Positions 8,260-43,116 of a DNA stretch of 44,625 nt are shown piece after piece (position 1 is the first letter of the stretch; each line of letters starts with the position of its first letter). The notes beneath the pieces were generated by a model, which was given only the letters and a program-made list of their open reading frames with translations, made no database searches and was not told the DNA's origin. A program made the position numbers and the translations under genes. Source of the stretch: Candidatus Jordarchaeia archaeon (GTDB lineage Archaea; Asgardarchaeota; Jordiarchaeia; Jordiarchaeales; Jordiarchaeaceae); assembly GCA_018383815.1 (NCBI GenBank), contig JAHAWU010000009.1, forward strand, positions 1-44,625. Reading direction: 5' to 3'.

Positions 8260-8411
8260 CACTTATTCACCCAAAAATTATCTGTTTTACAAAGATTAAC
8301 TATAATTATATCCTTTACTCCTAACAGGCATTAAACCTAACGTTTTGAACTCTAGCTATGTTTTCCGAGATAGAATTAACCAACCCACCTAGGCTCTTGC
8401 TTTCCCCCAGA

Positions 8412-9845: not shown

Positions 9846-9884
9846 CAATTGACCCACCTCTCACCTCCTTAAAATAAAATTGGG

Positions 9885-20154: not shown

Positions 20155-20160
20155 TTTGAA

Positions 20161-21551: not shown

Positions 21552-21898
21552 TACACCACCACTCCAAAAATATTTCACACGGGAACCCATGAACAATAAT
21601 TTCTACTCTTTTTTATTGTTTCTGATTACTTCCCTAGCCAATTGATGTTTAATCTTTCCTTTTACGAAAATAAACATTTCCCAAAAAGATATGCTACAAA
21701 ATTGTGATGATCCACCAAGTATCCCTTCACTGAAACATTTTTCACATCGCAATTAGTTCACAAACTGGTACCCACACAAAACACAAATTCCGCTTACAAT
21801 AACTTTTTCCATGCTTTGAATCCGTCTCGAAATTTTTTTCACCCCCTTCGGCCCCATATTCGCAAAGCTTTTATTAGCTAGCTGCCTTTGTTGGTTTA
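21552..21898. other. Intergenic region between divergent hdrC and NSUN genes
   Basis: About 350 bases, AT-rich, with no gene seen. It should hold divergent promoters. GTGATGA (21704-21710) and CTGA (21730-21733) resemble a C box and a D' box 19 bases apart, but no C'/D pair follows, so a C/D guide RNA is not supported. Confidence 0.45.
21868..21877 (+). promoter_or_regulatory. TATA-like box of the NSUN-NIP7 genes
   Basis: CTTTTATTAG is centred about 26 bases before the ATG at 21899, and no ribosome binding site precedes that ATG. The spacing suggests a leaderless transcript, common in archaea. Confidence 0.45.
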
Positions 21899-23482: not shown

Positions 23483-24346
23483 CTATTTTGAAAATTTTTT
23501 GATTACTGAGGCGTCTATGCGGTTTTCGTTGATGGCTAAATCTTGATAGCTGATTCCCATGGCTAAACCTAGGAGCTGAGAATAATGTACTATGGGAATA
23601 TCGATGGGGTTGTTTGGGGGCATTTGGCTCTGCTCATACATCAAGTAGCAAAATGGGCAAACGGTGACCATTATATCGGCATACCTTTTAACTGTTGAAA
23701 GCTTTTCCCTAGCTATTTCAGTGGCTAACTCGTTTCTTCGTTTTATTGTCAGCAGTGGTGCGGAGCAGCAGTCCAGCTTACCCGGATAGTCTACACTAAC
23801 TGCCCCCGTAATATTAACCAGTTCATCTAGGGAAGTGGGGTCTTCAGGGTCATCAAAATTCATTATCTTGAAAGGCTTTAATAAATGGCACCCGTAATGC
23901 ACCGCCACCCTTAAACCCTCCAAGGGGTTCGAAACATGGGCGCGAATTCTATCAATTCCCAAATCCTCAAAAAACATTCGCACAAAATGTTTAACCTCCA
24001 CCTTCCCCCTAAACTCCCGATCCACTCCCGCAAGGATGTTGTTCACATCGTCTCTCAGTTCAACTTCCTTTTTCAGCGTGTTGTTGGCGTCTGTGAGGAC
24101 TTCTGTGCAGCCATTACACAAAGTGACAATGTTAATCCCCATATCCTCCGCTATGGATATGTTCCGGGCGGCCAAGGCAAGCGCCGTTATAGGGTCTATA
24201 CACTTTAGATAGGTGGTTCCACAACATCCCGCTCCCTCCATATCCAAGAGCTCCACACCCAAAGCTTCGGCTACTTTCCTTGTGGAAACCTCGTAGCTCG
24301 GAAGCCTGGCTAAAGTTGTGCACCCCACAAAAAATGCATACTTCAT
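23483..24346 (-). CDS. hdrB: HdrB-type subunit, last gene of the large Hdr gene run
   Basis: The 287-residue protein has CCG-domain cysteines GAGCCGTT with LCNGC, then HYGCHLLKP, LDCCSAP and VCPFC. In the second domain the CCG triplet is CCS, but all cysteines needed for two noncubane clusters are retained. The ATG at 24346 follows hdrC after seven bases, with GAGGAGG in the end of that gene as binding site. It pairs with the HdrC at 24353-24898. Together they are the most distal C-B pair of the run, and lie beyond a winged-helix gene that separates them from the second pair. Confidence 0.9.
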   Translation of the reverse strand: MKYAFFVGCTTLARLPSYEVSTRKVAEALGVELLDMEGAGCCGTTYLKCIDPITALALAARNISIAEDMGINIVTLCNGCTEVLTDANNTLKKEVELRDDVNNILAGVDREFRGKVEVKHFVRMFFEDLGIDRIRAHVSNPLEGLRVAVHYGCHLLKPFKIMNFDDPEDPTSLDELVNITGAVSVDYPGKLDCCSAPLLTIKRRNELATEIAREKLSTVKRYADIMVTVCPFCYLMYEQSQMPPNNPIDIPIVHYSQLLGLAMGISYQDLAINENRIDASVIKKFSK

Positions 24347-24352
24347 AATTTT

Positions 24353-24898
24353 TTAGTCCTCCTCTATTTCTATTCCTACAAGTTTGTCAAGTCCCGTCAT
24401 TTTCATAATTTTTCTAACCTCACCAATGTTAACTTTGGGGGCAGGTGGGAGCTCCCTCATCTCCCTATCTTCCTCTATAAATTCAGTAAGTTCGTAGATG
24501 TAACCATGACTGGCTAAGGCTTCAATAACCTTCTTCATGGAGGGGTGCAGGTAGCCCTCTCTAGCCGCGATTCCTCGCAGAGCGGAAATTATCTCCGCCA
24601 GCTCCACATTTTGGGGGCAACGCTCAAGACACGTATAACACTGGAGGCAAAGCCACAATAAATCTCCTTGAAAGAGCACCTGCTTCATTCCAAGCTTGGT
24701 CATCATGGCTATCAACCTGGGCTTATACTCCTGGATGTGTCTTCCAATTGGGCAGTCGGCGCTGCATGTGCCGCATTGGAAGCAGAGCATAAGCTTTTCG
24801 CATCCCGGAATTTTGCTAATCTCCTCCTGTAAGCTGGTATCCAAATCCTGGAGTTTGATGACTGTTTGCTTTTCACCAGAAGAATTCGCCTCAGTCAT
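24353..24898 (-). CDS. hdrC: HdrC-type ferredoxin subunit
   Basis: The 181-residue protein carries CFQCGTCSADCP and CLQCYTCLERCP, two [4Fe-4S] motifs that connect HdrA to HdrB. The region between them (the helical ALRGIAAREGYLHP part follows the second motif) and the PPAPKVN tail match its paralogues. The start is ATG at 24898 after a GGTGA. It lies 34 bases downstream of the winged-helix gene, the largest gap in the whole Hdr run, so an internal promoter for this last C-B pair is possible. Confidence 0.9.
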   Translation of the reverse strand: MTEANSSGEKQTVIKLQDLDTSLQEEISKIPGCEKLMLCFQCGTCSADCPIGRHIQEYKPRLIAMMTKLGMKQVLFQGDLLWLCLQCYTCLERCPQNVELAEIISALRGIAAREGYLHPSMKKVIEALASHGYIYELTEFIEEDREMRELPPAPKVNIGEVRKIMKMTGLDKLVGIEIEED

Positions 24899-24932
24899 TT
24901 CGAGTCACCACTCTTAAAATTTATTCTTTGCT

Positions 24933-25301
24933 TCATCTAACCAACTCGTATAAATACATGTTCTCTTTCTCACCTGCAAAGGCAACCCGCCCCATTCTTC
25001 TCAGGGCTAGTAGGTGCTTCACTACTGCTTGTTCTGGAAGTCGGGTTGCCTTGGAAAGGTCTTTGACTGATAGTGGCCCCTGTCTTTCGATTTCATTCAT
25101 AATAAGCCATCTCTCAAGCTCCTCTCTCATAATCTTCCTCATAAGCTGCTCCAAACCTTCCTCGGTGATGGTTCCTGATTCCAAAAGGGCTTGGCTTCGT
25201 CCGATGAGCCACCTGACACGAATGTCTCCCAGAACTCCAACAGCTGCCTCCAATCTTTTTCTTAAATCTTCAGACAATGTGAGTTCAGCCTCCCGAACCA
25301 T
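24933..25301 (-). CDS. Winged-helix DNA-binding-type protein inside the Hdr run
   Basis: This 122-residue protein has a helical N-terminal part and a C-terminal winged helix: SVKDLSKATRLPEQAVVKHL as helix-turn-helix, then LRRMGRVAFAGEKENMYLYE as wing. The same region is recognisable in the C-terminal domain of the MvhD fusion at 30127-30897 (SVKELAERLNLSPQRVLRH, then MRRKNLVAVE...PLYMALE). It has no cysteines, so it does not itself bind a metal cluster. It may regulate the run, or interact with the Hdr proteins. The ATG at 25301 overlaps the end of hdrB and lacks a binding site; a TTG at 25277 follows GGGAGG by eleven bases and could be the true start. Confidence 0.75.
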   Translation of the reverse strand: MVREAELTLSEDLRKRLEAAVGVLGDIRVRWLIGRSQALLESGTITEEGLEQLMRKIMREELERWLIMNEIERQGPLSVKDLSKATRLPEQAVVKHLLALRRMGRVAFAGEKENMYLYELVR

Positions 25302-26151
25302 TTTTCAATATTTTTGAAATCCTAACTCTGTGATCATTTAAAGCCAGCTCGTCTGGTTCAATGCCCAAAGCCAGCGCTAAAAGCTCAGGGTAGTGAAGCA
25401 CTGGGAGCTCAAATTTCTCACCAAAAAGTTTCTCTATTCGTGACTGGTTAAGGTCAAAGGCCAGGTAGCAGGAAGGGCAAATAGTAATTAGGGCATCGGC
25501 TCCTGCTTCCTTCATGTGCCTAAGTTTGTCCCCCGCTAGTTGAAAAGGAATTTTTTCATCTATGGCCATGATGGGGTAGCCACAGCACTCCCTTTTGTTC
25601 ACGTAATTCAGACATGTAGCCCCCGTGGGTTCAATTAATTGTCTCAGAATGGTAGGGTTCTCAGAGTCGTCAAATTTCATGTATTCCTTTGGTCGCAGAA
25701 TGTGGCAGCCATAATGCTCCACCACTTTGAGACCCCTATGTGGTTTCACAATTTTTTCCTTGATCTTTTCAGTGCCCACATTCTCCACCAGTACCTGAAC
25801 CAGATGCTTAACTTCCCTATTTCCCTTATATTCCATTCCATCCCTTTTCAAGAAGTTGTTAATATTTTCCCTAGCTTTCTTATCTTCTCTAAGGATAGTG
25901 TTCACCTTGTGTAGAGTGCCACTACAGCCGGGGCAGAGAGTCAATATGTCAAGCTCCTCTCTTTCCGCTAAGCAAAGGTTCCAAGCAGCCAAAACCATCA
26001 TCATTTCGTGGCTGATGGGATCTATGGGAAGACCACAACAGTTAAACTCGGGCATATCCACTAACTCGACATCCAATCTGCTAAGAACCTTTCTTGCTGC
26101 AACCTCATAACTGGGAACCCTGTAGGGAATTAGACAGCCCAAATAAAGCAA
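25285..26151 (-). CDS. hdrB: HdrB-type subunit (second C-B pair)
   Basis: The 288-residue protein has two canonical CCG domains (NCCGLP with LCPGC; HYGCHILRP, ECCGYP and ICPSC), expected to carry two noncubane clusters. The given start is TTG at 26151 (MLYLGC), which has no binding site. The frame is open further upstream to an ATT at 26169 that sits just behind GGAGGGAGG, and would add the residues ISDSTY, resembling the MSEREF start of the HdrB at 20161-21045. The true start is thus uncertain. It follows hdrC by at most 19 bases and overlaps the winged-helix gene. Confidence 0.88.
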   Translation of the reverse strand: MLYLGCLIPYRVPSYEVAARKVLSRLDVELVDMPEFNCCGLPIDPISHEMMMVLAAWNLCLAEREELDILTLCPGCSGTLHKVNTILREDKKARENINNFLKRDGMEYKGNREVKHLVQVLVENVGTEKIKEKIVKPHRGLKVVEHYGCHILRPKEYMKFDDSENPTILRQLIEPTGATCLNYVNKRECCGYPIMAIDEKIPFQLAGDKLRHMKEAGADALITICPSCYLAFDLNQSRIEKLFGEKFELPVLHYPELLALALGIEPDELALNDHRVRISKILKNGSGG

Positions 26152-26170
26152 GTAAGTTGAATCCGAAATT

Positions 26171-26692
26171 TTACCTCCCTCCTTCCACCTTTTTTGCCTT
26201 TTTTAGGAATCCCGCAATTTCTGTGAGTCTGGCAAGCCTTTTGGGATTAGCCTTTGGTAATGGAGGAAGCCCTGCAGCCTCCCTCTTCTTCATTCTGGAT
26301 TCCGATATTTCGTAAGCGTAACCCGTTTCCAGAACGTTAGAAGCCAATTCCCTAAAACCATCTGGAATATGTCCTTCCTTCACGGCAAGGTTTCTGAGCA
26401 CTCTCAATAAGCTGGAAAACCTTACACCCCTCGGACAGCGGTCAGTACAGGTATAACAAGAGGCGCAAAGCCAAAGTTCACCAGCTGAAAGAACATCCGA
26501 TTTTAACCCAAAAAGAACCATTCTCAATATCTTAAGAGGCCTATATGCCCCGCTGAAGCGAGCCACAGGGCAGTCCGCGGTACACGTTCCACACTGCATA
26601 CAAAGCATAAGGTTCTCTATTTCTGGCACATGGCTGAGCTCATATTTGAATTGGCGATCAGCCTCTGATAGCTTGATGACTTCTTCAGTCAT
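26171..26692 (-). CDS. hdrC: HdrC-type ferredoxin subunit (second C-B pair)
   Basis: The 173-residue protein has [12 protein letters not shown] and [12 protein letters not shown], then a helical middle and a Lys-rich tail. It passes electrons between an HdrA and the HdrB encoded next. Its ATG overlaps the MvhD stop by four bases (ATGA), so its translation is probably coupled to MvhD. This places D-C-B in direct sequence after the fused double HdrA. Confidence 0.9.
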
Positions 26693-27117
26693 TTCCCGTC
26701 ACCTCCATCACTGAGTGGGCTTGGACCCAGTTCCTTTATCTTTTGAGTCATTTCTTTCACAACCGCCGCAAATTTGTCTCCCTCCGAGGCAGAAATCCAC
26801 TCCAACCTTAAACGTTCCGGCTCTATTCCGAGTTGTTTTAACAGATTTCGGGTCAGGGCTATTCTACGCTGAGCCCTCAGGTTTCCTGTCAGATAGTGGC
26901 AATCCGATGGTATGTGGCATCCTGCTACCAGCACTGCATCAGCACCGTTTTTGAAGGCTTCCAGTACAAATGTGGGGTCTATTCTTCCGCTGCACATAAC
27001 CCTAATTATTTTAACATTTGTCGGATACTGAAACCTACTCACTCCCGCCAAATCGGCGCCGGCGTAGCTACACCAGCTACAGCAAAAAGCCACTATTTTG
27101 GGTTCAAACTCCGCCAC
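26689..27117 (-). CDS. mvhD: MvhD-type [2Fe-2S] electron-transfer subunit
   Basis: This protein of about 142 residues has the MvhD cysteine pattern: FCCSWCSY, then MCSGRIDP, then [10 protein letters not shown]. The last motif has one residue more than the usual GCxPGDCHY. In methanogens MvhD links HdrA to the hydrogenase MvhAG or to formate dehydrogenase; neither is encoded in this window, so its electron donor is unknown. GTG at 27117 follows GGAGG by eight bases and is preferred to GTG at 27126, which would overlap the binding site. It comes two bases before the end of the fused HdrA and overlaps hdrC. Confidence 0.9.
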
Positions 27118-27118
27118 A

Positions 27119-30100
27119 TCATCCACCTCCTAGTAAGGCTCTAATCTGAGCCAGAATCTGTTTATCAGTAAAATGCTCAATGGTTATTGCTCCCGAGGGG
27201 CAGGCGGCGCTACACAGTCCACACCCCTTACAGAGGGCTTCTATTATGTTTGAAACGTGTCTTCCATTCTTTTCCACGATTTGCGCAGCTCCACTCTCAC
27301 AGATAGATACACAGACTTTGCACGCAGCACAAAGATCTTCGTCAACCTTAGCTATTGCCCCTTCTATTTCCAGCGCCTCTTTGGATAGGATGGTGGCTGC
27401 TCGAGCAGCCGCGCCACAGGCTTGAGATATGCATTCGTCTATGAATTTTGGTGACTGTGCCAGTCCACAGAGAAAAATTCCCTCTGTGGCGAAATCAACT
27501 GGGCGAAGCTTCATGTGTGCCTCTAGGAAAAATCCCTCCTTACTTAAGGGAACTTTTAGCATCTGAGCCAAATTTCTATTATCGGGGTTTGGATGTATCC
27601 CCGCACTTAGCACAATTAGGTCGGGCTCAATTTCTATTTTCTTCTTAATGATGGGATCCCTAACTTGTACCCTGAGTGTTCCCTCATTTGTCACTTCCGG
27701 TTTGTGCTCTTCGTCGTAGCGAATAAATATTATTCCCCTCTTCTGAGCTTCCTGATAATACTTCTCCCGGAAACCATAAGTTCTCATATCCCTATATAGC
27801 ACATAGACCTCTGTTTCTGGGTTTAACTCCTTAATTTTTAAAGCGTTCTTAATTGCATCGGAACAACAAACTCTGGAGCAGCTCGGGTGTTCACCATTTC
27901 TGGAGCCGATACACTGTATCATAACCACAGTATCCGCGCCGAATTCCCCGTTTGCCAACTTTTCCTCTAATTCCAGCTGTGTTAGTACCCGGTCATCCAT
28001 TCCGTAGAAATACTCAGTAGGTTTATACTCAGTCCCACCCGTAGCTACAATTATTACCCCATGCTGAATCTCCCTTCTCTCCCCATTAACTAGTATAGCT
28101 GTCTTAAAGTTTCCAACATACCCCTCAACACCCACCACTTCCGCTTCTGTGTAAACATGTATTTTCCCGTTCTCTTCCACTCTCCTTATTAAAGATTCGA
28201 GTCTTTCGCTGGGTTTGTCGCCGTTGAGAAGAAATTTTATTCTACGGAGATTTCCTCCAAGCTGTTTCTCCCTCTCCACTAAGTGGACCTCGAATCCTTG
28301 CTCTGCAAGCTCCAAAGCCGCAGTCATTCCCGATAACCCCCCACCAATAACTAGGCCCGCTGGTATAATATTTATCATTGGTTTTTGAAGAGGTCTAAGC
28401 AGTCTGGCCTTTGCCACAGCGCTCCTTACCAGGTCTATGGCTTTCTGTGTTGCCTTCTCAGGCTCAAGCATGTGTACCCAGGAGCATTGATCCCTTATGT
28501 TTGCCATTTCAAAGAGGTAGGGGTTTAAGCCTCCTTCCCGAATTGTGTCTCTGAAGAGGGGCTCATGTGTTCTTGGAGTACATGATGCCACCACAACACG
28601 GTTAAGGTCATGTTCCTTTATGGCTTCCACTATGCGTGCACCAGTATCTTGAGAGCAAGTGTAGAGGTTGTGCTCAGCATATACCACGTTTGGAAGTGTT
28701 TTGGCATATTCCACTACTCTGGGTACGTCAACTACTCCACCAATGTTTATCCCACAGTGGCAAACGAAAACTCCGATTCGAGGCTCCTTTCCCTCCACAT
28801 TTTTCTCAGGCGGGTACTGCTTTTTAGCGATTAGTTTTCCCCTCGCTGAGGATATGATGCTTCCCGCTTTGGCGGCGGCGCCGCTTGCTTGTGCTACACT
28901 GTCTGGAATGTCCTTGGGGGAAGAGAATGCTCCACAAACATAGATGCCTGGCACCGAGCTTTCAAGTGGGGTAAAATCATCTGTTTTGCAGAAGCCATAC
29001 TCGTTAAGTTCTATGCCCAGTTTTTCCGCTATTTCCCGGGCATTCTTTGGTGGCTTCATTCCAACTGAGAGTACTACAAGGTCAAATTCTTCCTCTTTAG
29101 GCTCGCCGTCCTCAATATATTTTACAAGAAGATTGTGTGATTTGGGTATTTCCTCTATGCTGGCAACCCTAGATCTGACAAATCTTACGCCATATTCTTC
29201 CTCAGCCCTCCTATAGTAACCGTCGAACTCTTTTCCATAGGAACGCATATCTATGAAAAATATGGTGCAATCCAGGGGGCTCTGAGTGTGTTCCTTAGCA
29301 ATCACCGCTTCCTTGATTGCAAACATACAGCACACAGCGGAGCAGTAACTGTTCCCCAGACGGGTGTCACGAGAACCAACACACTGAATAAACGCAATAT
29401 TTTTGGGAATCTCACCATCGTAGGGGCGAATAACTAGACCACCATAGGGCCCAGAAGCACTAAGGATACGTTCAAACTCTATACTTGACACCACATTGGG
29501 GAAGCGCCCATAACCATATTCTTGCAGGGCTTCCGCCTCAAATTCCTCAAAACCCGGGGCAAGTATTATGGAGCCCACATCCAAAACTAGATCTTGCTCC
29601 TCCTGCTCATATTCGATTGCTTTCGCCCTGCACACCTCGCTACATATCCCACATCCTATACATTTCTCTCTATCAATTGAATATACTAGGGGAACTGCCT
29701 GTGGATACCTAACAAATATTCCTCCCCGATTACCCAATCCTTCATTAAACTCATCAATAGCCTCAACGGGACACCATCTAGCACACACCCCACACCCAGT
29801 GCACTTCTTCTCATTAACACGTCTAGGTCTCTTAGTAATAGTGACTTTGAAGTGGCCTGCACTTCCTTCGACCCCCCTTATAGAGGCATTAGTTAAAAGT
29901 TGAATGTTGGGGTGCCTCCCGCAACCAACCAGCTTTGGTGCAAGAATACACATTGCACAATCATTTGTGGGGAAGGTCTTATCCAGTTGAGCCATCACAC
30001 CTCCAATGGTGGGCGTCTCATCCATCAAGTAGACTTTGAAGCCGGAGTCTCCCAAATCAAGAGCGGCTTGGATTCCTGCTATTCCGCCTCCCACAATTAG

Positions 30101-30124
30101 GACCGCCCCAACCTTATCCTCCAT
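27119..30124 (-). CDS. hdrA: Fused double HdrA flavoprotein
   Basis: At about 1001 residues this is two HdrA units in one chain. The first (about 1-430) starts directly with the FAD motif GGGIAGI, has DCAMC, an inserted ferredoxin ([12 protein letters not shown] and [11 protein letters not shown]) and the HdrA cysteine set CVGSR...YCSAVCC. It lacks the HdrA N-terminal domain and the C-terminal ferredoxin. The second (about 445-1001) starts with the N-terminal domain [10 protein letters not shown], has its own GGGLSGM FAD site and CIGSR...CSRVCC, no inserted ferredoxin, and ends in a two-cluster ferredoxin ([24 protein letters not shown]). The order equals the separate gene pairs at 32845/30894 and 36305/34614. 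ATG at 30124 has GGAGG seven bases ahead, preferred to GTG at 30130. A two-flavin electron-splitting subunit is inferred. Confidence 0.92.
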
Positions 30125-30126
30125 AT

Positions 30127-30897
30127 TCACACCTCCAGAGCCATGTATAGAGGGGACCTTCCCTCAATTCTTTCAACTGCTACCAGGTTTTTCCGCCGCA
30201 TAGCCGCAATGTGGCGCAGCACCCTTTGGGGGCTCAGATTCAGTCTTTCAGCCAGCTCCTTAACTGACAGGGAGCGGTCTTTTACCATACGGAGTATTCT
30301 GTGTCGGTCGAATTCGTCATCAATGTACTCAGTTAACCTCCTCTCAAATTCTTCTTTGGATACCACTTCTCCGTACACGTTTCCTTTCTCGGTAATCTGT
30401 CTCTTCTTGCCAACTAGTTCTCTTAAGCGTACATCGGCAACAGTATCCCTAACCACTGCCAATAGTTCCATTATGTTTTTGTCTGGGTTCCCTCCCGCCA
30501 GGGGCGATGGGCCTAAGGATAACAGCTGGTTTGTGAAGTCTTCGACAACCTCTGCGAAGAGGACTCCTCCCGAAGCTGGGATCCATTCCAGACGTAGTCT
30601 TTCTGGCTCCAATCCGGTTTTGGCTATCAAATTTTTCAAAATTTTTATTCTAACTTCTGCGTTGAGGTTACCCTCCACATAGTGGCAGTCGCCTGGAAAA
30701 CATCCTGCAATTAAAACTCCATCGGCGCCATTAATGAGAGTGTCCACTACGATTACTGGGTCAATTCTGCCACTGCACATTAATCTCACAATGCGTATGG
30801 TTGGTGGGTAACTAATTCTACTCATGCCAGCCAAATCAGCGGCTGAGTAGGCGCACCAATTGCACAGAAACCCAACTATTTTTGGCTCATAACTCAT
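30127..30897 (-). CDS. mvhD: MvhD-type subunit fused to a C-terminal winged-helix domain
   Basis: Residues 1 to about 140 are a complete Mvh[22 protein letters not shown] and GCFPGDCHY, all cluster cysteines present. A helical linker (about 145-190) leads to a winged helix in the last 60 residues (SVKELAERLNLSPQRVLRH, then a wing ending PLYMALEV). The same domain stands alone at 24933-25301. A redox protein joined to a DNA-binding-type fold could sense the electron state of the complex, or the domain may serve as a protein contact. The ATG overlaps the preceding HdrA stop (ATGA), and its own stop overlaps the region before the fused HdrA, so translation is coupled on both sides. Confidence 0.88.
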   Translation of the reverse strand: MSYEPKIVGFLCNWCAYSAADLAGMSRISYPPTIRIVRLMCSGRIDPVIVVDTLINGADGVLIAGCFPGDCHYVEGNLNAEVRIKILKNLIAKTGLEPERLRLEWIPASGGVLFAEVVEDFTNQLLSLGPSPLAGGNPDKNIMELLAVVRDTVADVRLRELVGKKRQITEKGNVYGEVVSKEEFERRLTEYIDDEFDRHRILRMVKDRSLSVKELAERLNLSPQRVLRHIAAMRRKNLVAVERIEGRSPLYMALEV

Positions 30898-32843
30898 GGT
30901 TCTCCCCTTCCTAATGCGGCGAGTGATTGGGCGAGGATTTGCTCATCTGTAAAATGAAATATTGTAATGGCCCTTGCTGGGCAGCTTGCGGCGCAAGCGC
31001 CACAACCCTTACATAGAATCTCTGTAACTTGCGCTTTTCCTCCCTCACCCTTCTTTATTGCTCCATAAGGGCATATACTCTGACAAGTTCCGCACTCAAT
31101 ACAAAGATCTTCATTAACTGAGGCTACTATGGGTTCCACGTCTACTTTACCTTTGGACATGGGAATAGAGGCCCTTGAAGCTGCTCCGCATGCCTGAACT
31201 ATACACTCGGTGATATCCTTAGGAAACTGGGCGGCGCCAGCAAGGTATATCCCTTCAGAATTTGTGTCAAGAGGCCTGAGCTTAGGATGCGCCTCTCGGA
31301 AAAAGCCGTCTGGTGTACGTGTAACTCCCATTTTTGAGCCCAACTCTGCGGAGTCCTTCCTGGGGGTCATAGCCTCAGCAAGAATTAGTAGATCCGTGGG
31401 AATCTCGATAGTCATTCCCAGTGTAGGATCATATACCTCTACCTGAATCTGAGAGTTGTTTGGTTTGGAAACCTTTGGGGGATTATCTGGTGAATATCTG
31501 AAGAAGTTTATGCCTGCTAATCGCGCTTCTCCATAAAGTTCTTCCTGTCCCTTACCAAAGCTTCTGATGTCTCGGTAGAGAATGGAGATCTGTGTTTCCG
31601 GATATTCTTTTTTGATGAGCATAGCGTTTTTTAATGCCACCGAGCAGCAGACTCTGGAGCAATATTGCCTCTGTGGGTTTCTGGAACCCACACAAAGAAT
31701 AAAAACCACGTTCTTGGGCACCTGTCCCTTGGAAGGTTTCACTAACCGTCCACTGGTGGGACCATTTTTGCTGAGCATTCTCTCCAGTTGGAACTGGGTG
31801 ATTACATCTTCATACTCTCCAAAGCCATATTCACCTTGGGGCAAATAGGGATCATAACCGGTAGCGAGAATAATTGTTCCCACCGTAATGTTTTTGCTTT
31901 GGGGTTTGCTGTCCAGAGAAATGGCATCTTGCTTGCAGACCCTGATGCACTTCCCGCAGCGTGTGCAGTTAGCCTCATCAATAGTAAGAATTCTGGGCAC
32001 AGCCTCACTGTAAGGAATGTATATAGCCTTCCTATTGTTTAGTCCAAAGTTAAATTCGTCTGGTACCTCTACGGGGCATACTTCTAGGCATTTCCCGCAC
32101 AGGTTGCAGTTTTGGTTAACGAAACGGGGTAGTATCTTTAGCTTTATTTCAAAATTGCCAATATAGCCGCCCACTTCCTCGATTTCGGTGTTAGTGAATA
32201 TCTCAATGTTCGGATTGCCTGTTAGTGCGTTCAGCTTTGGTTTAAGAATTTCTGAGGCTCTTTCATTGGTTAAAATTACCCTGTTTAACTGTGCTACTCT
32301 TCCTCCAAGGTAGGGTGACTTCTCTACAAGATAGGTGGAAAATCCCCTATTGGCTGGTTCCAAAGCTGCCTGTATTCCAGTTACTCCTCCACCTACAATT
32401 AGAGTTGCGGGTTTAACTTGAACCTCCCTTTTTTCTAGGGGTTGAAGCAAGCGAACCTTAGCAACAGCCATTCTTAATATGTCCTTTGCCTTCTCGGTGG
32501 CCTTTACGGGATTATTTGCATGGGCCCAAGAACACTGCTCTCGAAGATTAGCCATTTCGAAAAGATATCGGTTTAGTCCAGCCTCCTCCACAACAGAGCG
32601 GAATGTGGATTCATGCATCTGTGGAGAACAGGAAGCCACCACAACCCTATTCAAATGGTAGTCTTTGATATCCTTTTTTATTAGTTCCTGACCAGGCTCC
32701 GAGCACATGTAAACATAGTGCCTTGCAACCACGACGCCCGGGAGTTTTCCCGTGGCTTCCGCCACTTTTTCAACATCAATTACTCCTGCAATATTCAGTC
32801 CACAATGGCAAATGTAGCACCCAACACGTAATTCTTCCTCCAT
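30894..32843 (-). CDS. hdrA: HdrA flavoprotein, long type (second A-A-D module)
   Basis: The 649-residue protein has every HdrA part: N-terminal domain (GCYICHCGLN), FAD motif GGGVTGI, inserted ferredoxin (CNLCGKCLEVCP, CTRCGKCIRVC), the HdrA cysteine set CVGSR...YCSRVCC, and a C-terminal ferredoxin (CIECGTCQSICP, CKGCGACAASCP). Unlike the short type it lacks the DCxxC motif after the FAD domain. It is the only long-type HdrA of the run that keeps the inserted ferredoxin, so this module has more clusters than its two neighbours. ATG at 32843 has GGAGG seven bases ahead and lies one base after the short HdrA stop. Confidence 0.92.
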   Translation of the reverse strand: MEEELRVGCYICHCGLNIAGVIDVEKVAEATGKLPGVVVARHYVYMCSEPGQELIKKDIKDYHLNRVVVASCSPQMHESTFRSVVEEAGLNRYLFEMANLREQCSWAHANNPVKATEKAKDILRMAVAKVRLLQPLEKREVQVKPATLIVGGGVTGIQAALEPANRGFSTYLVEKSPYLGGRVAQLNRVILTNERASEILKPKLNALTGNPNIEIFTNTEIEEVGGYIGNFEIKLKILPRFVNQNCNLCGKCLEVCPVEVPDEFNFGLNNRKAIYIPYSEAVPRILTIDEANCTRCGKCIRVCKQDAISLDSKPQSKNITVGTIILATGYDPYLPQGEYGFGEYEDVITQFQLERMLSKNGPTSGRLVKPSKGQVPKNVVFILCVGSRNPQRQYCSRVCCSVALKNAMLIKKEYPETQISILYRDIRSFGKGQEELYGEARLAGINFFRYSPDNPPKVSKPNNSQIQVEVYDPTLGMTIEIPTDLLILAEAMTPRKDSAELGSKMGVTRTPDGFFREAHPKLRPLDTNSEGIYLAGAAQFPKDITECIVQACGAASRASIPMSKGKVDVEPIVASVNEDLCIECGTCQSICPYGAIKKGEGGKAQVTEILCKGCGACAASCPARAITIFHFTDEQILAQSLAALGRGEP

Positions 32844-32844
32844 A

Positions 32845-34146
32845 CTACTTCCTCCCTCTCAAAAAAGTTACCGCCTTCATGGCCGCAGCGCTGGCTTCAG
32901 ATACACTATCTGGCACGTCCTTGGGGCTCAAAGCTGTTCCCGCCACAAAAATACCTGGAACTTTTGTTGAAACAGTATCAACCTTGATGTCTGCTTCCTC
33001 TATGTAACCATAATCGTCTAGGGGCACTTCCAATATTTTGCTCAGCTCTGCTATTCCGTCTGGTGGTGTTAAACCCACAGAAAGAACTACCATCTCAAAT
33101 TCTTCCTGTAAAATCGCCCCAGTTTCGGTGTCCTCAACCCTCACTATCAGGTTCTGGTTTTCTGGAATCTCATAAATTCTTGCCACCCTTCCCCGCTTGA
33201 ATTGAACCTTAAACTCTTCCCTAGCCCTTTGGTATAGTTCTTCAAATCCTTTACCATAGGTTCTAACATCCATGTAAAATATGGTGACGTCAACATCAGG
33301 TATATGCTCCTTAAGCAGTATACTGTCCTTTACAGCATACATGCAACAGACTCTGGAACAGTAGGGATAACCATAGTGTGAGTCTCTTGAACCTACACAC
33401 TGAACAAAAGCCACTCTTTTAGGTATGCAGCCATCTGAGCGTCTCAAAATATGTCCCGCAGTCGGCCCAGCGGCGGAGAGAAGTCTCTCAAGCTCCAAGG
33501 CTGTTAAAACATTGGCATATTTCCCGTAACCGTAAGCCTTCTTTTGTTTAGCGTCAAAAGGTTTATAGCCAGTAGCAACAATAATCGCCCCCACATTGAG
33601 CTTAACCTCCTCAGGCGCCTGATCCAAGTTTACCGCCCCTGCCCCTATGGATTCACATATCCTTTTGCAGAGCTCACACCTAATACAATGCTCTTCATCT
33701 ATAGTGTACTTTAATGGAACTGCCTGAGGAAAAGGCACATAAATCGCCTTCCGAACATCCATCCCCGCGTTAAAATCGTCAGAAACCTCTACCGGGCAGT
33801 ATCTGGCGCAAACCCCACACCCCGTACACTTGGATACGTCAACGTATCTCGGCTTTTTCACAATCTCTACTTCAAAAACTCCACCATTCCTCTTAACTTT
33901 TCTTACCTCAGAATAAGTTAGAAGCTCAACATTGGGATGCCTGCCGACGTCCACCATTTTTGGAGTGAGGATACAAGCTGAGCAGTCAAGTGTGGGAAAA
34001 GTCTTATCCAACATAGCCATATGTCCACCCACACTGGGTGTACTTTCAACTACATAGGCTTTGATTCCCTGGTCGGCTACATCTAATGCGGCCTGAATTC
34101 CCGCTATGCCTCCACCTATTATTAGAACACCCTCATTCCCATCCAA
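32845..34146 (-). CDS. hdrA: HdrA flavoprotein, short type (second A-A-D module)
   Basis: The 433-residue protein begins with the FAD motif (GVLIIGGGIAGI) and contains LDCSACIL, an inserted ferredoxin ([23 protein letters not shown]) and the HdrA cysteine set CVGSR...YCSRVCC. It has no N-terminal HdrA domain and no C-terminal ferredoxin, and so corresponds to the first half of the fused protein at 27119-30124. It ends at FLRGRK, and the long-type HdrA starts one base later. The start is TTG at 34146 with GGAGG eight bases ahead. It probably forms a heterodimer with that long type, in place of the HdrA homodimer seen in methanogens. Confidence 0.92.
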   Translation of the reverse strand: MDGNEGVLIIGGGIAGIQAALDVADQGIKAYVVESTPSVGGHMAMLDKTFPTLDCSACILTPKMVDVGRHPNVELLTYSEVRKVKRNGGVFEVEIVKKPRYVDVSKCTGCGVCARYCPVEVSDDFNAGMDVRKAIYVPFPQAVPLKYTIDEEHCIRCELCKRICESIGAGAVNLDQAPEEVKLNVGAIIVATGYKPFDAKQKKAYGYGKYANVLTALELERLLSAAGPTAGHILRRSDGCIPKRVAFVQCVGSRDSHYGYPYCSRVCCMYAVKDSILLKEHIPDVDVTIFYMDVRTYGKGFEELYQRAREEFKVQFKRGRVARIYEIPENQNLIVRVEDTETGAILQEEFEMVVLSVGLTPPDGIAELSKILEVPLDDYGYIEEADIKVDTVSTKVPGIFVAGTALSPKDVPDSVSEASAAAMKAVTFLRGRK

Positions 34147-34161
34147 GCAGTCTACCTCCCA

Positions 34162-34590
34162 TCATTCTCTTAAAAGTAGCGGTCCCATTCTTTTGAGCTC
34201 CCCAACCATTTCCTGAACTACTTGTACAAATCTTCTACCTTCCATAGCAGATATCCATTCTATCCGCAGCCGCGCCGGGCTAACACCAATTTCTTCCATA
34301 AGCATTTTCAAAAACTTGACTCTGACTTCTGCCTGCCTATTTCCCCCACCGTATCGGCAATAGTTGGGGTGGCACCCAGCAATAATCACTCCGTCAGCTC
34401 CATTTAAGAAAGCCCTCATCACGAATAGTGGATCCACTCGACCAGTACACATAACTCTAATTATCTGAACGTTAGAGGGATAAAATGTCCTACTTATTCC
34501 TGCTTGGTCAACACTGGAATAACTGCTCCAATTACAGGTAAAAGCCACTATTTTTGGCTCAAACTCCCTTATTCCCTCTACTTCCTCCAT
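34162..34590 (-). CDS. mvhD: MvhD-type subunit with an altered cysteine motif
   Basis: This 142-residue protein is MvhD-like throughout, but its first motif reads TCNWSSY instead of CNWCxY, losing the second cysteine of CxxC. MCTGRVDP and GCHPNYCRY keep their cysteines. If the ligand set follows the other MvhD proteins, its cluster is incomplete, altered in potential, or bound with a serine. ATG at 34590 has GAGGT eight bases ahead. It follows the long HdrA of the first module (gap 23 bases) and precedes the short HdrA of the second (gap 15). Confidence 0.88.
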   Translation of the reverse strand: MEEVEGIREFEPKIVAFTCNWSSYSSVDQAGISRTFYPSNVQIIRVMCTGRVDPLFVMRAFLNGADGVIIAGCHPNYCRYGGGNRQAEVRVKFLKMLMEEIGVSPARLRIEWISAMEGRRFVQVVQEMVGELKRMGPLLLRE

Positions 34591-34613
34591 TTTGCTAACC
34601 TCTTCTTACTCCT

Positions 34614-36308
34614 TTATTTAAGAGCTGCCTCCACCTCCGCAAGTATCTGTTCATCCTTAAAGTCCTTCATGACTATTGCTTTGGGGGGGCAAGCGGCGGC
34701 ACACGTACCGCAGCCTCGGCACATGGCTTCTATTACCATGGATTTTCCCTCCGCAAAGGTGATGGCGTGCACTGGGCAAAGGTCTAGGCACAGTTGACAT
34801 CCAATGCATAAATCTTCATTAACCTCCGCGGTTATGGCCGGAATATTTACTTTTTTGTGGAGCATGGAAGTTGCTGCCAGCGCCGCTGCGGCGTATGCCT
34901 GGGTTATACTCTCATCGATACTTTTGGGTCCCTGGGCAGTTCCACAAACATAGATGCCATTAACACCGAGGGCTGTTGACCGCATTTCCATGTAGGCTTC
35001 TTTGAAGAAGCCGTCGGAACCCAAAGGAACTTTGAGAATTTTTGCAATTTCTTTTACATCCATGTTGGGAATAAGTGGTGTGGATAGGATAACCAAATCA
35101 CTATCAATGGTTAAGGTCTCACCCAGCAAAGCATGGTAAACTTTCACTCCTAACCTGCCGTTCCCATTAGGAACCACTTCTGGACGGCGCTCTGGGGTGT
35201 ATTCCATAAATTTTATTCCCAGCTCTCTTGCCTTTGACTGATACTCCTCGTTCTCCTTACCGTAGGTTTGTAGATCGCGGTAGATGATGTAGACCTCACA
35301 GTCGGGATACAATTTCTTTATCAATGTGGCGTTTTTAATTGCAACCATACAGCATATTCTAGAACAGTAGGTTAATCCTTTCTCTTCCCGGGCTCCCACG
35401 CATTGTATCATAACAACTTTTTCTGGATGTTTCAATTTTCCTTGTTTTAGAATTTGTTCCAATTCCAGCTGAGTAACAATCCCCTCATGTTTCCCATATC
35501 CATACATTCCAAAGGGTTCAAATGCTTCGGCTCCAGTGGCCAGAATTATGGTTCCCGCCCTAAATTTTTCTGTTCCCCCATTGAAAGAAACTGTAACTTC
35601 AAAGTCCCCGAAGTATCCTTCTACCTCCTTTACAGATGCTGATGTGAGGATTCTGATGTTTTTATGTTTTCTTACCGACTGGATAACCGGATTCAGAATT
35701 TCAGAAACTTCCTGATTGGTAAGATATAGCTTATAGAGTTTGTTTAACATGCCACCTATGTTGGGCTCCTTCTCAACTATGAGTACATTGAAGCCCTGAT
35801 TGGCCAGGCAAAGGGCTGCAGTCATTCCCGATATTCCGCCTCCAATAATCAGTGTGGAGGGGCGTACCTCTATTTCCAACTCTTGCAGGGGCTCCGATTT
35901 TTGAAGACGCGCCACGGCCATTCGCACAGTATTAATAGCTTTCCTGGTGGCTTCCTTTGGCCTGTCCTGATGCGCCCAGGCGCACTGTTCTCTAATGTTT
36001 GCAAAAGCAACAAGATACCTGTTAATCCCCGCTTTTTGACAAACAGATTCGAAAAGTGAACCATAGTTTTTGGGAGAGCAACCCGCGAAGACAACCCGAT
36101 CCACACTGCTCTTCTTTATAATTTCCCTTACCTTTTTCGTTCCAGCGGTAGAGCAGAGCGAATTATCTCTCTCCACAAATGCAACACAGGGCATTCCTTT
36201 AGAAGCTTCAATAACTTGGGGAATATCAATGATGCCACTGATGTTTGCTCCACAATCACAGAGGAATACTCCAATTCTTGGCTCTCGGTTCAGGTTAGCT
36301 TCACTCAT
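34614..36308 (-). CDS. hdrA: HdrA flavoprotein, long type without inserted ferredoxin (first A-A-D module)
   Basis: The 564-residue protein has the N-terminal domain (GVFLCDCGAN), the FAD motif GGGISGM, the HdrA cysteine set CVGAR...YCSRICC and a C-terminal ferredoxin (CIGCQLCLDLCP, CRGCGTCAAACP). The usual inserted ferredoxin is replaced by a few residues, and the DCxxC motif is absent. Those parts are supplied by the short HdrA encoded just upstream, so the pair together covers one complete HdrA plus a second flavin. It equals the second half of the fused protein at 27119-30124. Its ATG overlaps the stop of the short HdrA (ATGA). Confidence 0.92.
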   Translation of the reverse strand: MSEANLNREPRIGVFLCDCGANISGIIDIPQVIEASKGMPCVAFVERDNSLCSTAGTKKVREIIKKSSVDRVVFAGCSPKNYGSLFESVCQKAGINRYLVAFANIREQCAWAHQDRPKEATRKAINTVRMAVARLQKSEPLQELEIEVRPSTLIIGGGISGMTAALCLANQGFNVLIVEKEPNIGGMLNKLYKLYLTNQEVSEILNPVIQSVRKHKNIRILTSASVKEVEGYFGDFEVTVSFNGGTEKFRAGTIILATGAEAFEPFGMYGYGKHEGIVTQLELEQILKQGKLKHPEKVVMIQCVGAREEKGLTYCSRICCMVAIKNATLIKKLYPDCEVYIIYRDLQTYGKENEEYQSKARELGIKFMEYTPERRPEVVPNGNGRLGVKVYHALLGETLTIDSDLVILSTPLIPNMDVKEIAKILKVPLGSDGFFKEAYMEMRSTALGVNGIYVCGTAQGPKSIDESITQAYAAAALAATSMLHKKVNIPAITAEVNEDLCIGCQLCLDLCPVHAITFAEGKSMVIEAMCRGCGTCAAACPPKAIVMKDFKDEQILAEVEAALK

Positions 36309-37651
36309 GCCTTATTCCTCCCCATTTTCGCCAAAGTAATGGTTTCAATAACTCTCCCCGCAGCAGCACTAGCTTGAGTGGCAGATTCGGATATTCCTCT
36401 GGGTCCCCTACAGTAACCGCAGGTAAAAACGCCTTTTAGGGTGGTGTCAAAAGGCTGTGACACGGGATTTGGACTTTTAAAGAAACCATGTTCATCTAAT
36501 TCTAGGCCTAAAAATTCAGCTAATCTTCTATTATTAGGATGAGGTAATAGGGCGGGAGATAGGACCACCATGTCCACTCTCAACTTCTCCGCCCTCTGGG
36601 TAAGCGTGTTTTCAAAACTAATAATAAGATCCCTTGTTTCTGGATCTTCCCATATTCCCCCTGGGCGGCCCCTAATATAATTTACACCTAGACTGTTTCT
36701 AACTTTGTTGAAGAGTTCCTGGTAACCTTTTCCAAAGACTCGGAGATCAATATAGAAAACGTATACCTCTGTTTCCGGTTTTAAAATTTTTACTAGGGCA
36801 GCGTCCTTGGCAGTATACATGCAACATACTCCGGAGCAGAAATTGTTATTTGTCCTTCTGCTTCTTGACCCCACGCATTGAATAAAGGCTATACTTTTTG
36901 GCTCTTTTTTATCTGAAATCCTAACAATTTTACCTCCCGTGGGGCCATATATACTAGTCATTTGTTCAAGGTCAAGGATAGTGATGACATTCTTGTATCT
37001 CTTGTATCCATATTCCCTTATTCTGCCGGGGTCAAAGAGAGAAAGTCCAGTCGCAAGAATTATGGCTTCACTCTTAACTCCAATACTCACATCTTCATCG
37101 TTGAAATTTATTGCCCCAGTAGGACAGACCTCTGAACATTTTTCGCAGGTTCCACTCCTAAAATGTAAGCAATTCTCTCTATCGATGATTGGAACCTGAG
37201 GAAATGCCTGTGGAAGAGGAAAGTGGATAGCTTTCTTCCTTCCCTTGACCATGTTAAACGCGTCGAAAATTTCAACTGGGCACTTTTCGGTACAGGCACC
37301 GCAACCAGTGCATTTATCTTCATTGACAAAGCGTGGCTTTTTTAAAACATTCAAATAGAAGTTTCCAGCGGAACCAGAAATACCCATAATTTCGGCGTTT
37401 GTTAGAACCTTAATGTTTGAGTGATGGTAGCACTCAACTATCTTATGTATAACTGGGCAAATGGAACAATCCATAGGAACTTCAAGGCGGCAGGAAGAAC
37501 AGTTGAGTTCAATAATCCGCCCCCCGATACTGGGATTCTCCTCAACCAAATAGACAAGTGTTCCCAAATTCGCTAGTTCTAATGCTGCCTGTATTCCCGC
37601 AACTCCACCACCAATTATAGTGACAGAACCCGCTTTTTCCAAATGGATCAT
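36305..37651 (-). CDS. hdrA: HdrA flavoprotein, short type (first A-A-D module)
   Basis: This 448-residue protein starts at the FAD motif (VTIIGGGVAGI). It has a cysteine-rich segment after the FAD region (NCSSC and MDCSIC, more cysteines than its paralogues), an inserted ferredoxin (CTGCGACTEKCP; the second motif CLHFRSGTCEKCSEVCP has longer spacing than usual), and CVGSR...FCSGVCC. N-terminal and C-terminal HdrA domains are missing. ATG at 37651 has GGAGGG six bases ahead and is preferred to the longer frame from 37684, which would overlap hdrB. It is the most diverged short HdrA in the run. Confidence 0.9.
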   Translation of the reverse strand: MIHLEKAGSVTIIGGGVAGIQAALELANLGTLVYLVEENPSIGGRIIELNCSSCRLEVPMDCSICPVIHKIVECYHHSNIKVLTNAEIMGISGSAGNFYLNVLKKPRFVNEDKCTGCGACTEKCPVEIFDAFNMVKGRKKAIHFPLPQAFPQVPIIDRENCLHFRSGTCEKCSEVCPTGAINFNDEDVSIGVKSEAIILATGLSLFDPGRIREYGYKRYKNVITILDLEQMTSIYGPTGGKIVRISDKKEPKSIAFIQCVGSRSRRTNNNFCSGVCCMYTAKDAALVKILKPETEVYVFYIDLRVFGKGYQELFNKVRNSLGVNYIRGRPGGIWEDPETRDLIISFENTLTQRAEKLRVDMVVLSPALLPHPNNRRLAEFLGLELDEHGFFKSPNPVSQPFDTTLKGVFTCGYCRGPRGISESATQASAAAGRVIETITLAKMGRNKA

Positions 37652-37667
37652 TCTCCCTCCTTCAAAT

Positions 37668-38558
37668 TTACCTAATTTTTTCAAGAAGCGGAGATGGATC
37701 TATCTTATGGATATTCATTCCTAGTTCTCGGGGCTCGATTCCCAACGCTAACCCCAACAAATCTGTGTAATTAAGCACGGGCATATTGTATGATTCTCCT
37801 GTTCTTCTCTTGAAAAGAAGCTGCCCCATCTCAATCTGTAGAAAACAGTAGGGGCACGTTACAACCACACAATCCGCCTTAGCTTCCAGCGCGCTTTCCA
37901 GAATATCTACGCTCAATCTTAGGGCGGCCTCCTCTGCCACCTCACCAAAAAAGCTCCCACATCCTATGCAGCACCCAGTCCTCTCCCTATGCATGACACT
38001 AGTAGCCCCCGTAACATTGATAAGCTCATCAAGCTTTTCAGGAAACTCTGTATCATCAAATGACAGGTATTCCTGGGGTCTAATAAGATGGCAGCCGTAA
38101 AAAGGAGCAGCCTTGATTCCCTTGAGGGTTTTGGAAACCTTGTTTTTTAGGTTTACAAGGCCGATGTCTTCGTATAGGGCAGTGATTGAATGTTTAATGC
38201 CCACTTTGCCTCGGTAAACTCTTCCTACGGTGGCTAGAAGCTCATCTACTCTACGCCTAAGGTTTCCATTTTCAGACATGAGTTTTTTTGCTCTCCAAAG
38301 ATTGCCGTAACAGCTAACACAAAGTGTCAAAATATCCCTATCCAACTCGTCGGCGACGCAGAGATTTCTAGAAGTTAGTGCAAGTCCAGTCGCATAGTCA
38401 AAGGAATGAACTAGACAGGCAGGCATGCAACAAGTAAAATCTTCCACATCGTGAAGTTCCACATCTAAAGCTTCAAAAACCTTCCGAGCGGAAATCTCGC
38501 AGCTAAATTCCCGAGCAGAAGTTACACATCCTGGAAAAAGCGAATATTCCAGATTCAG
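37668..38558 (-). CDS. hdrB: HdrB-type subunit with an apparent CTG start (first C-B pair)
   Basis: The HdrB reading frame carries FTCCMP with LCVSC, and GCHLIRP, GCCIGCG and TCPYC. The first usable ATG/GTG/TTG is a GTG at 38462, but the frame upstream to 38558 encodes a normal HdrB N-terminus (LFPGCVTSARE, then FSCEISARKVFEAL) matching all paralogues, including the first cluster cysteine. No ATG, GTG or TTG occurs in that part, and a TAG lies just before it. A CTG at 38558 overlaps the hdrC stop as CTGA and has GGAGGG seven bases ahead. The hdrC/hdrB junction at 21042-21045 has the same layout with TTGA. The second CCG domain reads GCCIGCG, with an extra cysteine. With the CTG start the protein has 296 residues. 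Confidence 0.8.
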   Translation of the reverse strand: MNLEYSLFPGCVTSAREFSCEISARKVFEALDVELHDVEDFTCCMPACLVHSFDYATGLALTSRNLCVADELDRDILTLCVSCYGNLWRAKKLMSENGNLRRRVDELLATVGRVYRGKVGIKHSITALYEDIGLVNLKNKVSKTLKGIKAAPFYGCHLIRPQEYLSFDDTEFPEKLDELINVTGATSVMHRERTGCCIGCGSFFGEVAEEAALRLSVDILESALEAKADCVVVTCPYCFLQIEMGQLLFKRRTGESYNMPVLNYTDLLGLALGIEPRELGMNIHKIDPSPLLEKIR

Positions 38559-39052
38559 CCTCTAACCCTCCAGGTTGAGCTTTTCCCAGTTATAATATTA
38601 ATTTCTCTTAAGGCCTTTTTCGAAACAGTTTTCCCAATCTTTAGCAGTCCAAGTGCTTCTCGTTTCCTGTCTCGTGCTGGTGTGACTTCCAGTGTTCGTC
38701 CAGACTTTAAAATCTGCTTTATTAGATTTGTGGGCTGCTTGGGAAAGTACCCCTTCTCAACAGCTAGGTTTCGAGCTAAGAGAAAAATTTCCGTAGTTTT
38801 TATACCTTGAGGGCATCGTTCATAGCACGCGTAGCACCAAGCGCACAGCCAAAGTTCATCCTCAGTCAATGTTTTGCCCAAGTCAAAGAAAATTTTCTGC
38901 AGCAGTCCCCTAGGGTTAAAGCTCTCAGGGATTACCTTTGCCACAGGGCAGCTAGCTGTACAGGTACCACACCCATAACAGTACCTTAGTTTTTCAGCGT
39001 CTATTGACTTCTGTAAGAGCTCCTTTGAAATGCTTGCTATTTCTGCCTTCAA
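38555..39052 (-). CDS. hdrC: HdrC-type ferredoxin subunit, first gene of the large Hdr run
   Basis: The 165-residue protein has CYGCGTCTASCP and CAWCYACYERCP, both complete [4Fe-4S] motifs, followed by a helical region and a basic tail. The start is TTG at 39052, right after an in-frame TAA; GGAGG lies twelve bases upstream and AAAGGG nearer. Being first in the run, it should be preceded by the main promoter (TATA-like box at 39121-39132). It partners the HdrB encoded next and, by position, the first A-A-D module. Confidence 0.9.
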   Translation of the reverse strand: MKAEIASISKELLQKSIDAEKLRYCYGCGTCTASCPVAKVIPESFNPRGLLQKIFFDLGKTLTEDELWLCAWCYACYERCPQGIKTTEIFLLARNLAVEKGYFPKQPTNLIKQILKSGRTLEVTPARDRKREALGLLKIGKTVSKKALREINIITGKSSTWRVRG

Positions 39053-39120: not shown

Positions 39121-39132
39121 CTTATATATTTT
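39121..39132 (-). promoter_or_regulatory. TATA-like box of the large Hdr run
   Basis: On the minus strand this reads AAAATATATAAG, about 70 bases before the hdrC start at 39052. Initiation near 39095-39100 would leave a leader of about 45 bases that contains GGAGG at 39065-39069. It is the only clear promoter-like element before the 15-gene run. Confidence 0.5.
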
Positions 39133-42923: not shown

Positions 42924-43116
42924 TTCTATCCAACGTTTTTATTATATTTCCTTCTCTACGCATTTTTGGGCCTCTCTGCTTATTAAGGGCCCCTTTCCCA
43001 GGTCTTTGGTTAATCTTTATTTTGATGATTCACATTTTTTTATGCAGGATTCGCTTCGTTGTAGCTTGCTGTTTTGTTGTGGGTCGTAAAAAGGTCTGCT
43101 AAAGGGGTTATTTGAA

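Follow-up and report, generated by a model that had tools for sequence, protein, structure and literature searches.

Soluble heterodisulfide reductases (Hdr) are well described from methanogens, where the HdrABC-MvhADG and Elp-Hdr complexes (5odc, 8rvu; PMC12350162) combine a dimer of one HdrA with HdrB, HdrC, an MvhD-type protein (D) as connector and a bound hydrogenase or F420H2 module. In such HdrA dimers the N-terminal cluster of one HdrA is completed by Cys197 of the other, and HdrA heterodimers were proposed in 2022 from the complementary loss of the N-terminal cluster domain and of Cys197 (PMC9012536). Tandem and fused HdrA pairs accompanied by MvhD are found in anaerobic methanotrophic archaea (ANME) and in methanogens (PMC9012536, PMC12054007). 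Two residues, E356 and K409, separate bifurcating from non-bifurcating flavins (PMC9430772, PMC12054007); they are kept in 75% of type II HdrA, and some type II clusters add another HdrA and HdrD (PMC12054007). We analysed a run of 15 Hdr genes on the minus strand (39052 to 23483) of an Asgard contig (Jordarchaeia/Freyarchaeota; genome of 3.79 Mb). The window is the whole analysed stretch of 44,625 nucleotides of this contig, JAHAWU010000009.1.

The open reading frames together with Pfam confirmed the gene order of a preliminary description: C1, B1, As1, Al1, D1, As2, Al2, D2W, AA, D3, C2, B2, W, C3, B3. C and B stand for HdrC and HdrB, As and Al for short and long HdrA, AA for a fused HdrA-HdrA, D for an MvhD-like protein and W for a winged helix (Table 1). 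Intergenic gaps range from -17 to +34 bases and are mostly overlaps, which supports the earlier view that the block is probably one operon. To our reading, which we consider evenly poised between right and wrong, this operon would encode a soluble Hdr-type system, running in the bifurcating or confurcating direction, with three HdrA cores of asymmetric build: As1-Al1, As2-Al2 and the fused AA. The system is an enlarged, composite variant of the modular heterodimeric/type II HdrA design of many anaerobes and not a new kind of machine. The preliminary description had taken known systems to use a single HdrA set; this is contradicted by the tandem and fused pairs with MvhD (PMC9012536, PMC12054007), by the HdrA with two flavin domains of acetogens (PMC9430772) and by arrays of three or four A-A modules elsewhere.

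By folds and cofactor motifs of HdrA, HdrB, HdrC and MvhD (Pfam, with PDB sequence matches for A and D) the block belongs to the soluble HdrABC-MvhD family in the broad sense. Both cysteine-rich motifs were present in all three HdrB and two cluster motifs in each HdrC. The methanogen cut-offs of NCBIfam were not reached: HdrB1 to HdrB3 scored 275-299 against 345 and 103-121 against 450, and As, Al and AA stayed below the HdrA cut-offs of 1100, 1300 and 1400, AA coming closest with 1034 against 1100 for HdrA2. Pfam found no MvhAG hydrogenase subunits among the 15 genes. Class II benzoyl-CoA reductase (Bam) clusters contain a tungsten BamB and NuoEFG-like subunits; neither Bam catalytic (BamB) nor NuoEFG-like domains were found by Pfam in the 15 block genes. 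QmoAB-HdrCB of sulfate reducers has a short and a long HdrA-like protein as a pair, an MvhD-like domain and HdrCB. No Qmo model was among the NCBIfam matches at E 1e-15, the presence of such a model in NCBIfam being unchecked. Features shared with the Bam system are an HdrA-like subunit, two bifurcation-type flavins and a proposed tandem bifurcation (PMC9430772). The methanogen complexes (PMC12350162) share the HdrA, B, C and D folds, the motifs and D as connector, and differ in their dimer of one HdrA and in the bound partner module. MetVF-HdrABC-MvhD of acetogens (PMC9430772) likewise has an HdrA with two flavin domains, D, C and B, but its partner is MetVF and it has one HdrA gene. As in type II HdrA (PMC12054007), AA carries two thioredoxin-reductase-type flavin adenine dinucleotide (FAD) domains in one chain, here with E356/K409; 14% of type II HdrA genes lie beside FdhB and a molybdopterin protein, whereas none are present in the block. 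The resemblance to the ANME heterodimeric HdrA (PMC9012536) lies in the paired HdrA, the complementary N-domain/Cys197 and the MvhD and HdrBC genes in the clusters. Differences are the three HdrA pairs and three C-B pairs of the block, its winged helix, absent from the accessible ANME text, and the order of the fusion, as ANME HdrA3/4 begin with the N-domain half and AA with the Cys197 half.

The asymmetry of the HdrA pairs was analysed with loci collected from other genomes (L numbers below). The starting set comprised 79 loci, taken from the best 80 of 586 candidates with an AA relative, and more were added later. The 'Cys197' position was defined as the second cysteine of the DCSxC motif in an alignment to 8rvv, with a numbering offset to 5odc. 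Al1 and Al2 have both an N-terminal cluster domain and a C-terminal ferredoxin, and both are missing from As1 and As2. 'Cys197' was found in As1, As2 and the first half of AA and was absent from Al1, Al2 and the second half of AA. In all three block pairs one partner has the N-domain without Cys197 and the other the reverse, as in heterodimeric HdrA. Across the aligned loci Cys197 was present in 104/107 AA first halves and 47/51 separate As (the 3 and 4 misses being alignment gaps), in 0/107 AA second halves, in 10/62 separate Al and in 6/8 MvhD-fused Al. Gene neighbourhood could be assigned for 68 of the 70 Al-type genes. Cys197 was kept in 0/47 Al genes directly after an As gene and in 14/16 Al without a preceding As, as expected of heterodimers; 5 Al at contig edges, 2 with and 3 without Cys197, were set aside. 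The E356/K409 signature, by which bifurcating Hdr flavins are recognised, was found at 6/6 block flavin sites, in support of the three A-A-D units with six flavin sites proposed earlier. Elsewhere it was seen in 107/107 AA first halves, 50/51 As, 55/62 separate Al and 92/107 AA second halves. The AA model was confident as a whole (Table 1), its best matches being HdrA of solved Hdr complexes. Judged from the motifs and the usual cluster content of HdrA, the block would hold six FAD and roughly three dozen Fe-S clusters.

Conservation of the block was analysed next to its integrity. The syntenic search suggested before returned the same 15 genes in the same order in L021, L022 and L040, hence in 4/4 genomes of the genus including the source, in a sample of 195 genomes. 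The closest relatives in the genome collection are recorded as Candidatus Jordarchaeia, Candidatus Freyarchaeota and Ca. Jordarchaeum madagascariense, with a fused HdrA of 96, 85 and 84% identity, respectively; together with two Ras-family GTPases encoded in the window they mark the source as an Asgard archaeon. Ratios of nonsynonymous to synonymous substitution rates (dN/dS), calculated with our own Nei-Gojobori script for the block genes versus the three related genomes, were 0.02-0.20 in 43/45 gene comparisons, the other two (D3) showing saturated dS. The block genes are under purifying selection and show no sign of decay. Degraded gene copies, considered in the preliminary description, were rejected on dN/dS and intact frames. 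For the 4 genomes that represent the order's other family, the best D2W matches were at the level of the D domain alone (best E 3e-53 to 4e-51), and As1 matches reached 43-45% identity among the matches listed. The exact 15-gene order was not seen outside the genus among the loci fetched, and no published description of it was found in the literature searched, most subscription papers and all preprints being outside its scope. The number of modules is not unique.

FastTree trees of the collected loci were used to trace the origins of the modules. AA, D2W, D3, C2 and B2 were nearest to Bathyarchaeial DW-AA-D-C-B operons; D3, C2 and B2 were also near L128, a contig from an Asgard-sample genome with 12% contamination, and C2B2 was nearest to the L128/L027/L032 type. 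For C1B1 and C3B3 the nearest sequences were the C-B pairs of Bathyarchaeial L030, L031 and L033, and for As1-Al1 Bathyarchaeial L024. Those nearest to As2-Al2 came from Asgard genomes (L132, L133, L137 and L138), L137 and L138 being other loci of the source genome. Distances between block paralogues (As-type 1.27-1.63, Al-type 1.36-1.48) exceeded those to the nearest outside relatives (As-type 0.42-0.85, Al-type 0.43-0.89). Recent tandem duplication was therefore rejected, and the block appears as a composite of old, specialised units. The earlier term 'three tandem modules' is correct for the number present; the duplication that it implies is not, the modules being old and mutually dissimilar. 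L024 matches the gene order of the block from As onward, but lacks D1-As2-Al2, begins with a gene that joins a C1-like to a GltD-like part in place of C1-B1, and carries [NiFe] hydrogenase genes at the place of the Jordarchaeia W-C3-B3. A hydrogenase end swapped for further C-B heads was not found described in the literature searched.

The winged helix showed a positional preference. W was fused to 69/78 D encoded just before an A unit versus 7/86 other D. For these and the module counts the duplicate L141 (= L037) was left out, L153, L155, L156 and HdrA with an inserted GltD-like part were counted, and for the D-W count 2 plain D at contig edges were set aside. No published description of such a rule was found in the literature searched. 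D1 has no winged helix, but a free W protein is encoded in the same operon. The closest relatives of the free Jordarchaeia W were found in C-B-As-Al-D-W operons (L128, L032/L035, L131), whose W is still distant, at 1.06 to 1.29 substitutions per site. Besides the fused and the free form, a W-like stretch on an FrhB-type protein was observed at a second locus in 4/4 Jordarchaeia genomes; its W scores are weak (21-32 bits), and Pfam confirms FrhB in L137.

A possible way for these parts to work together starts from the predicted single arm of each core. As the As-type HdrA lacks both arm domains, each As-Al core would have one arm, serving the As flavin, with an empty site opposite; this argument was not found in the literature searched. 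The empty site left by As may be the docking place of the next module through D and W, with W supplied in fused form by D2W and by the free W protein for D1. The resulting chain would be C1B1 - As1/Al1 - D1(W) - As2/Al2 - D2W - AA - D3 - C2B2/C3B3. Six bifurcating-type flavins would carry electrons between ferredoxin, the thiol/disulfide couples of three HdrB sites and a mid-potential partner that is recruited at a D. It is possible, if doubtful, that the operon encodes three separate, related Hdr complexes (A-A-D plus one C-B each) with different donors or disulfides, kept together for joint regulation. The numbers match, with 3 A-A-D and 3 C-B, the parts are of separate origin (C1B1/C3B3, C2B2 and As2-Al2 have different nearest relatives), and C-B pairs and A-A modules are also found apart. 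However, the C-B pairs lie at the two block ends and not one per module, the As-Al-DW-AA-D order recurs as a unit in several lineages, and D2W adjoins AA in 4/4 genomes, with a 4-base overlap in the window.

Arrays comparable to the block were counted in 101 sequences, after removal of fragments and duplicates, giving 103 same-strand clusters with at least two HdrA flavin units: 2 units in 43, 3 in 11, 4 in 36, 5 in 2, 6 in 7, 7 in 3 and 8 in 1. The 7-unit counts include L022 and L040, where an adjoining HdrC-HdrB-HdrA operon fell within the distance limit. Up to four A-A modules joined by an MvhD-like D form arrays in Bathyarchaeia, Lokiarchaeia, Thermoplasmata and bacteria. The largest was L036 (Methanomassiliicoccales bin396) with DW-AA-DW-AA-DW-AA-DW-AA-D. 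Three-module arrays like C-B-As-Al-DW-AA-DW-AA-D were found in Lokiarchaeal L067 and L089 and in L135 of the same phylum, two-module examples in bacteria (L059, L062, L087), and in the class of the L025 genome (121 genomes) two DW lie about 3.8 kb apart on one contig in at least two genomes, G198 and G293. Our tentative proposal for this operon family, which we think more likely wrong than right, is that of linear multi-stage bifurcating complexes: one-armed HdrA heterodimers would be joined by D and a docking domain of winged-helix type. The number of A-A modules, one to four, would depend on the lineage, and bifurcation would be serial in one soluble particle. In the Jordarchaeia composite the hydrogenase end would have been replaced by HdrCB heads linking thiol/disulfide couples mutually and to ferredoxin. 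Electron bifurcation by Hdr is described in the accessible literature for single flavin sites or, by proposal, for two in tandem. If the arrays are physical chains, they would provide serial energy coupling with countable stages, the one-to-four-module variation offering a direct test, and the winged-helix domain would have a candidate role in such redox operons from archaea to bacteria.

Genes recurring near the clusters were those for the [NiFe] large (20 loci) and small subunit (19; Bathyarchaeia, Thermoplasmata and others), a Fer4_22 protein (26), an FAD/NAD-binding protein (26; both in many Lokiarchaeia), an FrhB-type protein (24) and MTHFR (11), with family names taken from Pfam on one member per group. 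The Fer4_22 and NAD-binding pair presumably resembles HydB/HydG. The [NiFe] hydrogenase, Fer4_22 and FAD/NAD-binding proteins and MTHFR are encoded near the D end, and none of these recurring partners was found by Pfam among the 15 genes of the Jordarchaeia block. A hydrogenase-linked serial enzyme as in Bathyarchaeia, with the hydrogenase provided in trans from other genome loci, is unlikely. Near DW-AA-D-C-B relatives (L024, L025, L032) do continue with small and large [NiFe] subunits (Pfam for L024), and PF00374 matches exist on contigs C104, C221 and C133 of the source genome, but the C104 and C221 hydrogenases adjoin their own HdrA-D genes, the 14 kb surrounding the C133 match showed no HdrA, and the block ends in W-C3-B3 instead.

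Equally improbable are W and the D2 W domain as redox-linked transcription regulators beside ordinary Hdr subunits without docking logic: the ArsR-like fold (Pfam, Foldseek; best E 0.003) and the high isoelectric point (8.1 in free W, 9.6 in the W domain of D2) are as for a DNA-binding protein, but the D-W fusion precedes A units in archaea and bacteria, and the FrhB-type protein with its W-like stretch speaks more for docking than for a regulatory role. We are aware that the same two properties of W count against a chain of docked modules, as do several further observations. D-W loci are related and were mostly picked by AA similarity, so that a Fisher p-value for the D-W preference is overstated and no fair probability. 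The preference is also not without exception (L159 and other counterexamples): nine D before an A unit are plain (4 Jordarchaeia D1, L045, L046, L050, L060 and L137), and a D at the junction is not obligatory, as seen from AA-AA without D in L159 and AA-CB-AA in L057. In D1 the CNWC motif reads CNWS in 4/4 genomes, and the same serine change, or alanine, occurs in Bathyarchaeial DW of L025, L026, L027, L028, L029, L039 and L049; lacking one conserved cysteine, D1 may not carry a normal [2Fe-2S] cluster. Among the 16 Al without As neighbour 2 have no Cys197 (L052, L054), and 15/107 AA second halves lack the full flavin signature. Finally, the order of genes is no proof of one complex, and three enzymes with shared regulation would also fit.

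Table 1. Features of the window. Positions refer to the window; pLDDT, predicted local distance difference test; pTM, predicted template modelling score.
Feature	Position	Strand	Remarks
HdrC1	38555..39052	-	two [4Fe-4S] motifs
HdrB1	37668..38558	-	two CX(n)CCX(n)CXXC motifs; likely CTG start
HdrA-short 1 (As1)	36305..37684	-	FAD domain, 'Cys197' present; no N-terminal cluster domain, no C-terminal ferredoxin
HdrA-long 1 (Al1)	34614..36308	-	N-terminal cluster domain, FAD domain, C-terminal ferredoxin; no 'Cys197', no inserted ferredoxin
D1, MvhD-like	34162..34590	-	CNWS replaces CNWC; no winged helix
HdrA-short 2 (As2)	32845..34146	-	FAD domain, inserted ferredoxin, 'Cys197' present
HdrA-long 2 (Al2)	30894..32843	-	alignment to methanogen HdrA nearly full-length; no 'Cys197'
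D2W	30127..30897	-	MvhD-like domain and C-terminal winged helix; model pLDDT 90.8, pTM 0.89
AA, fused HdrA-HdrA, 1003 aa	27119..30130	-	As-like half, then Al-like half; model pLDDT 89.3, pTM 0.90
D3, MvhD-like	26689..27126	-	usual cysteines present; no winged helix
HdrC2	26171..26692	-	Pfam, motifs
HdrB2	25285..26151	-	both cysteine-rich motifs
W, free winged-helix protein	24933..25301	-	distant kin of W domains on D proteins
HdrC3	24353..24898	-	Pfam, motifs
HdrB3	23483..24346	-	both cysteine-rich motifs
TATA-like element	39121..39132	-	~70 bases upstream of HdrC1; core common to four genomes
Neighbouring HdrC-HdrB-HdrA(MvhD-fused) operon	17821..21596	-	counted outside block

The TATA-like element is a candidate promoter of the block. 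For HdrB1 the GTG at 38462 listed as start was discarded because the cysteine-rich domain begins upstream of it; the start is likely a CTG at 38558, three relatives having GTG at the equivalent place, and leaves a C1-B1 gap of -4 bases. A frameshift in HdrB1 was rejected, the alternative start being the explanation. An Rfam scan of the whole window at gathering thresholds gave no match. The HdrA of the neighbouring operon ends in an MvhD-like domain from which the usual first cysteines are missing. An operon of this type follows the block after 186 bases in L022 and 162 bases in L040 and runs in the opposite direction in L021. The stretch upstream of its HdrC, alike by eye in the window, L022 and L040, may be its own promoter.

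Regarding the physiological context, MCR_alpha was not found in the source genome (95.6% complete), while a ComA homologue was found; Mcr was rejected as heterodisulfide source on the missing MCR_alpha match. The block bears on the use of Hdr by an Asgard archaeon without detected Mcr. Thiol-linked D-lactate oxidation with Hdr was proposed in Jordarchaeia (PMC9723677), and at 5636-9857 of the window two GlcD-type oxidases and a GlpC/TfrB-like CCG protein are encoded, like the Jordarchaeia Dld-Hdr subunit D clusters of that paper. In wetland Asgard archaea including a Freyarchaeia genome soluble Hdr genes were among the most transcribed metabolic genes, the accessible text not naming the 15-gene block (PMC11291895).

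Further loci were noted during the analysis. L137:2616-13039 on contig C50 of the source genome is a C-B-HdrD-like-AA-D locus. After it come an HdrA and a D with in-frame TGA, which may encode selenocysteine, and an FrhB-type protein to which a W-like stretch is fused. L159:2269-14735 from an Asgard genome is a cluster of three fused HdrA-HdrA, of which two are direct neighbours with no D separating them. In L036:4792-21373 / L140 unknown open reading frames of 101 and 102 residues lie between two of the D-W and AA genes of the four-module array. At 42369-43650 of the window two Ras-family small GTPases are encoded in tandem.

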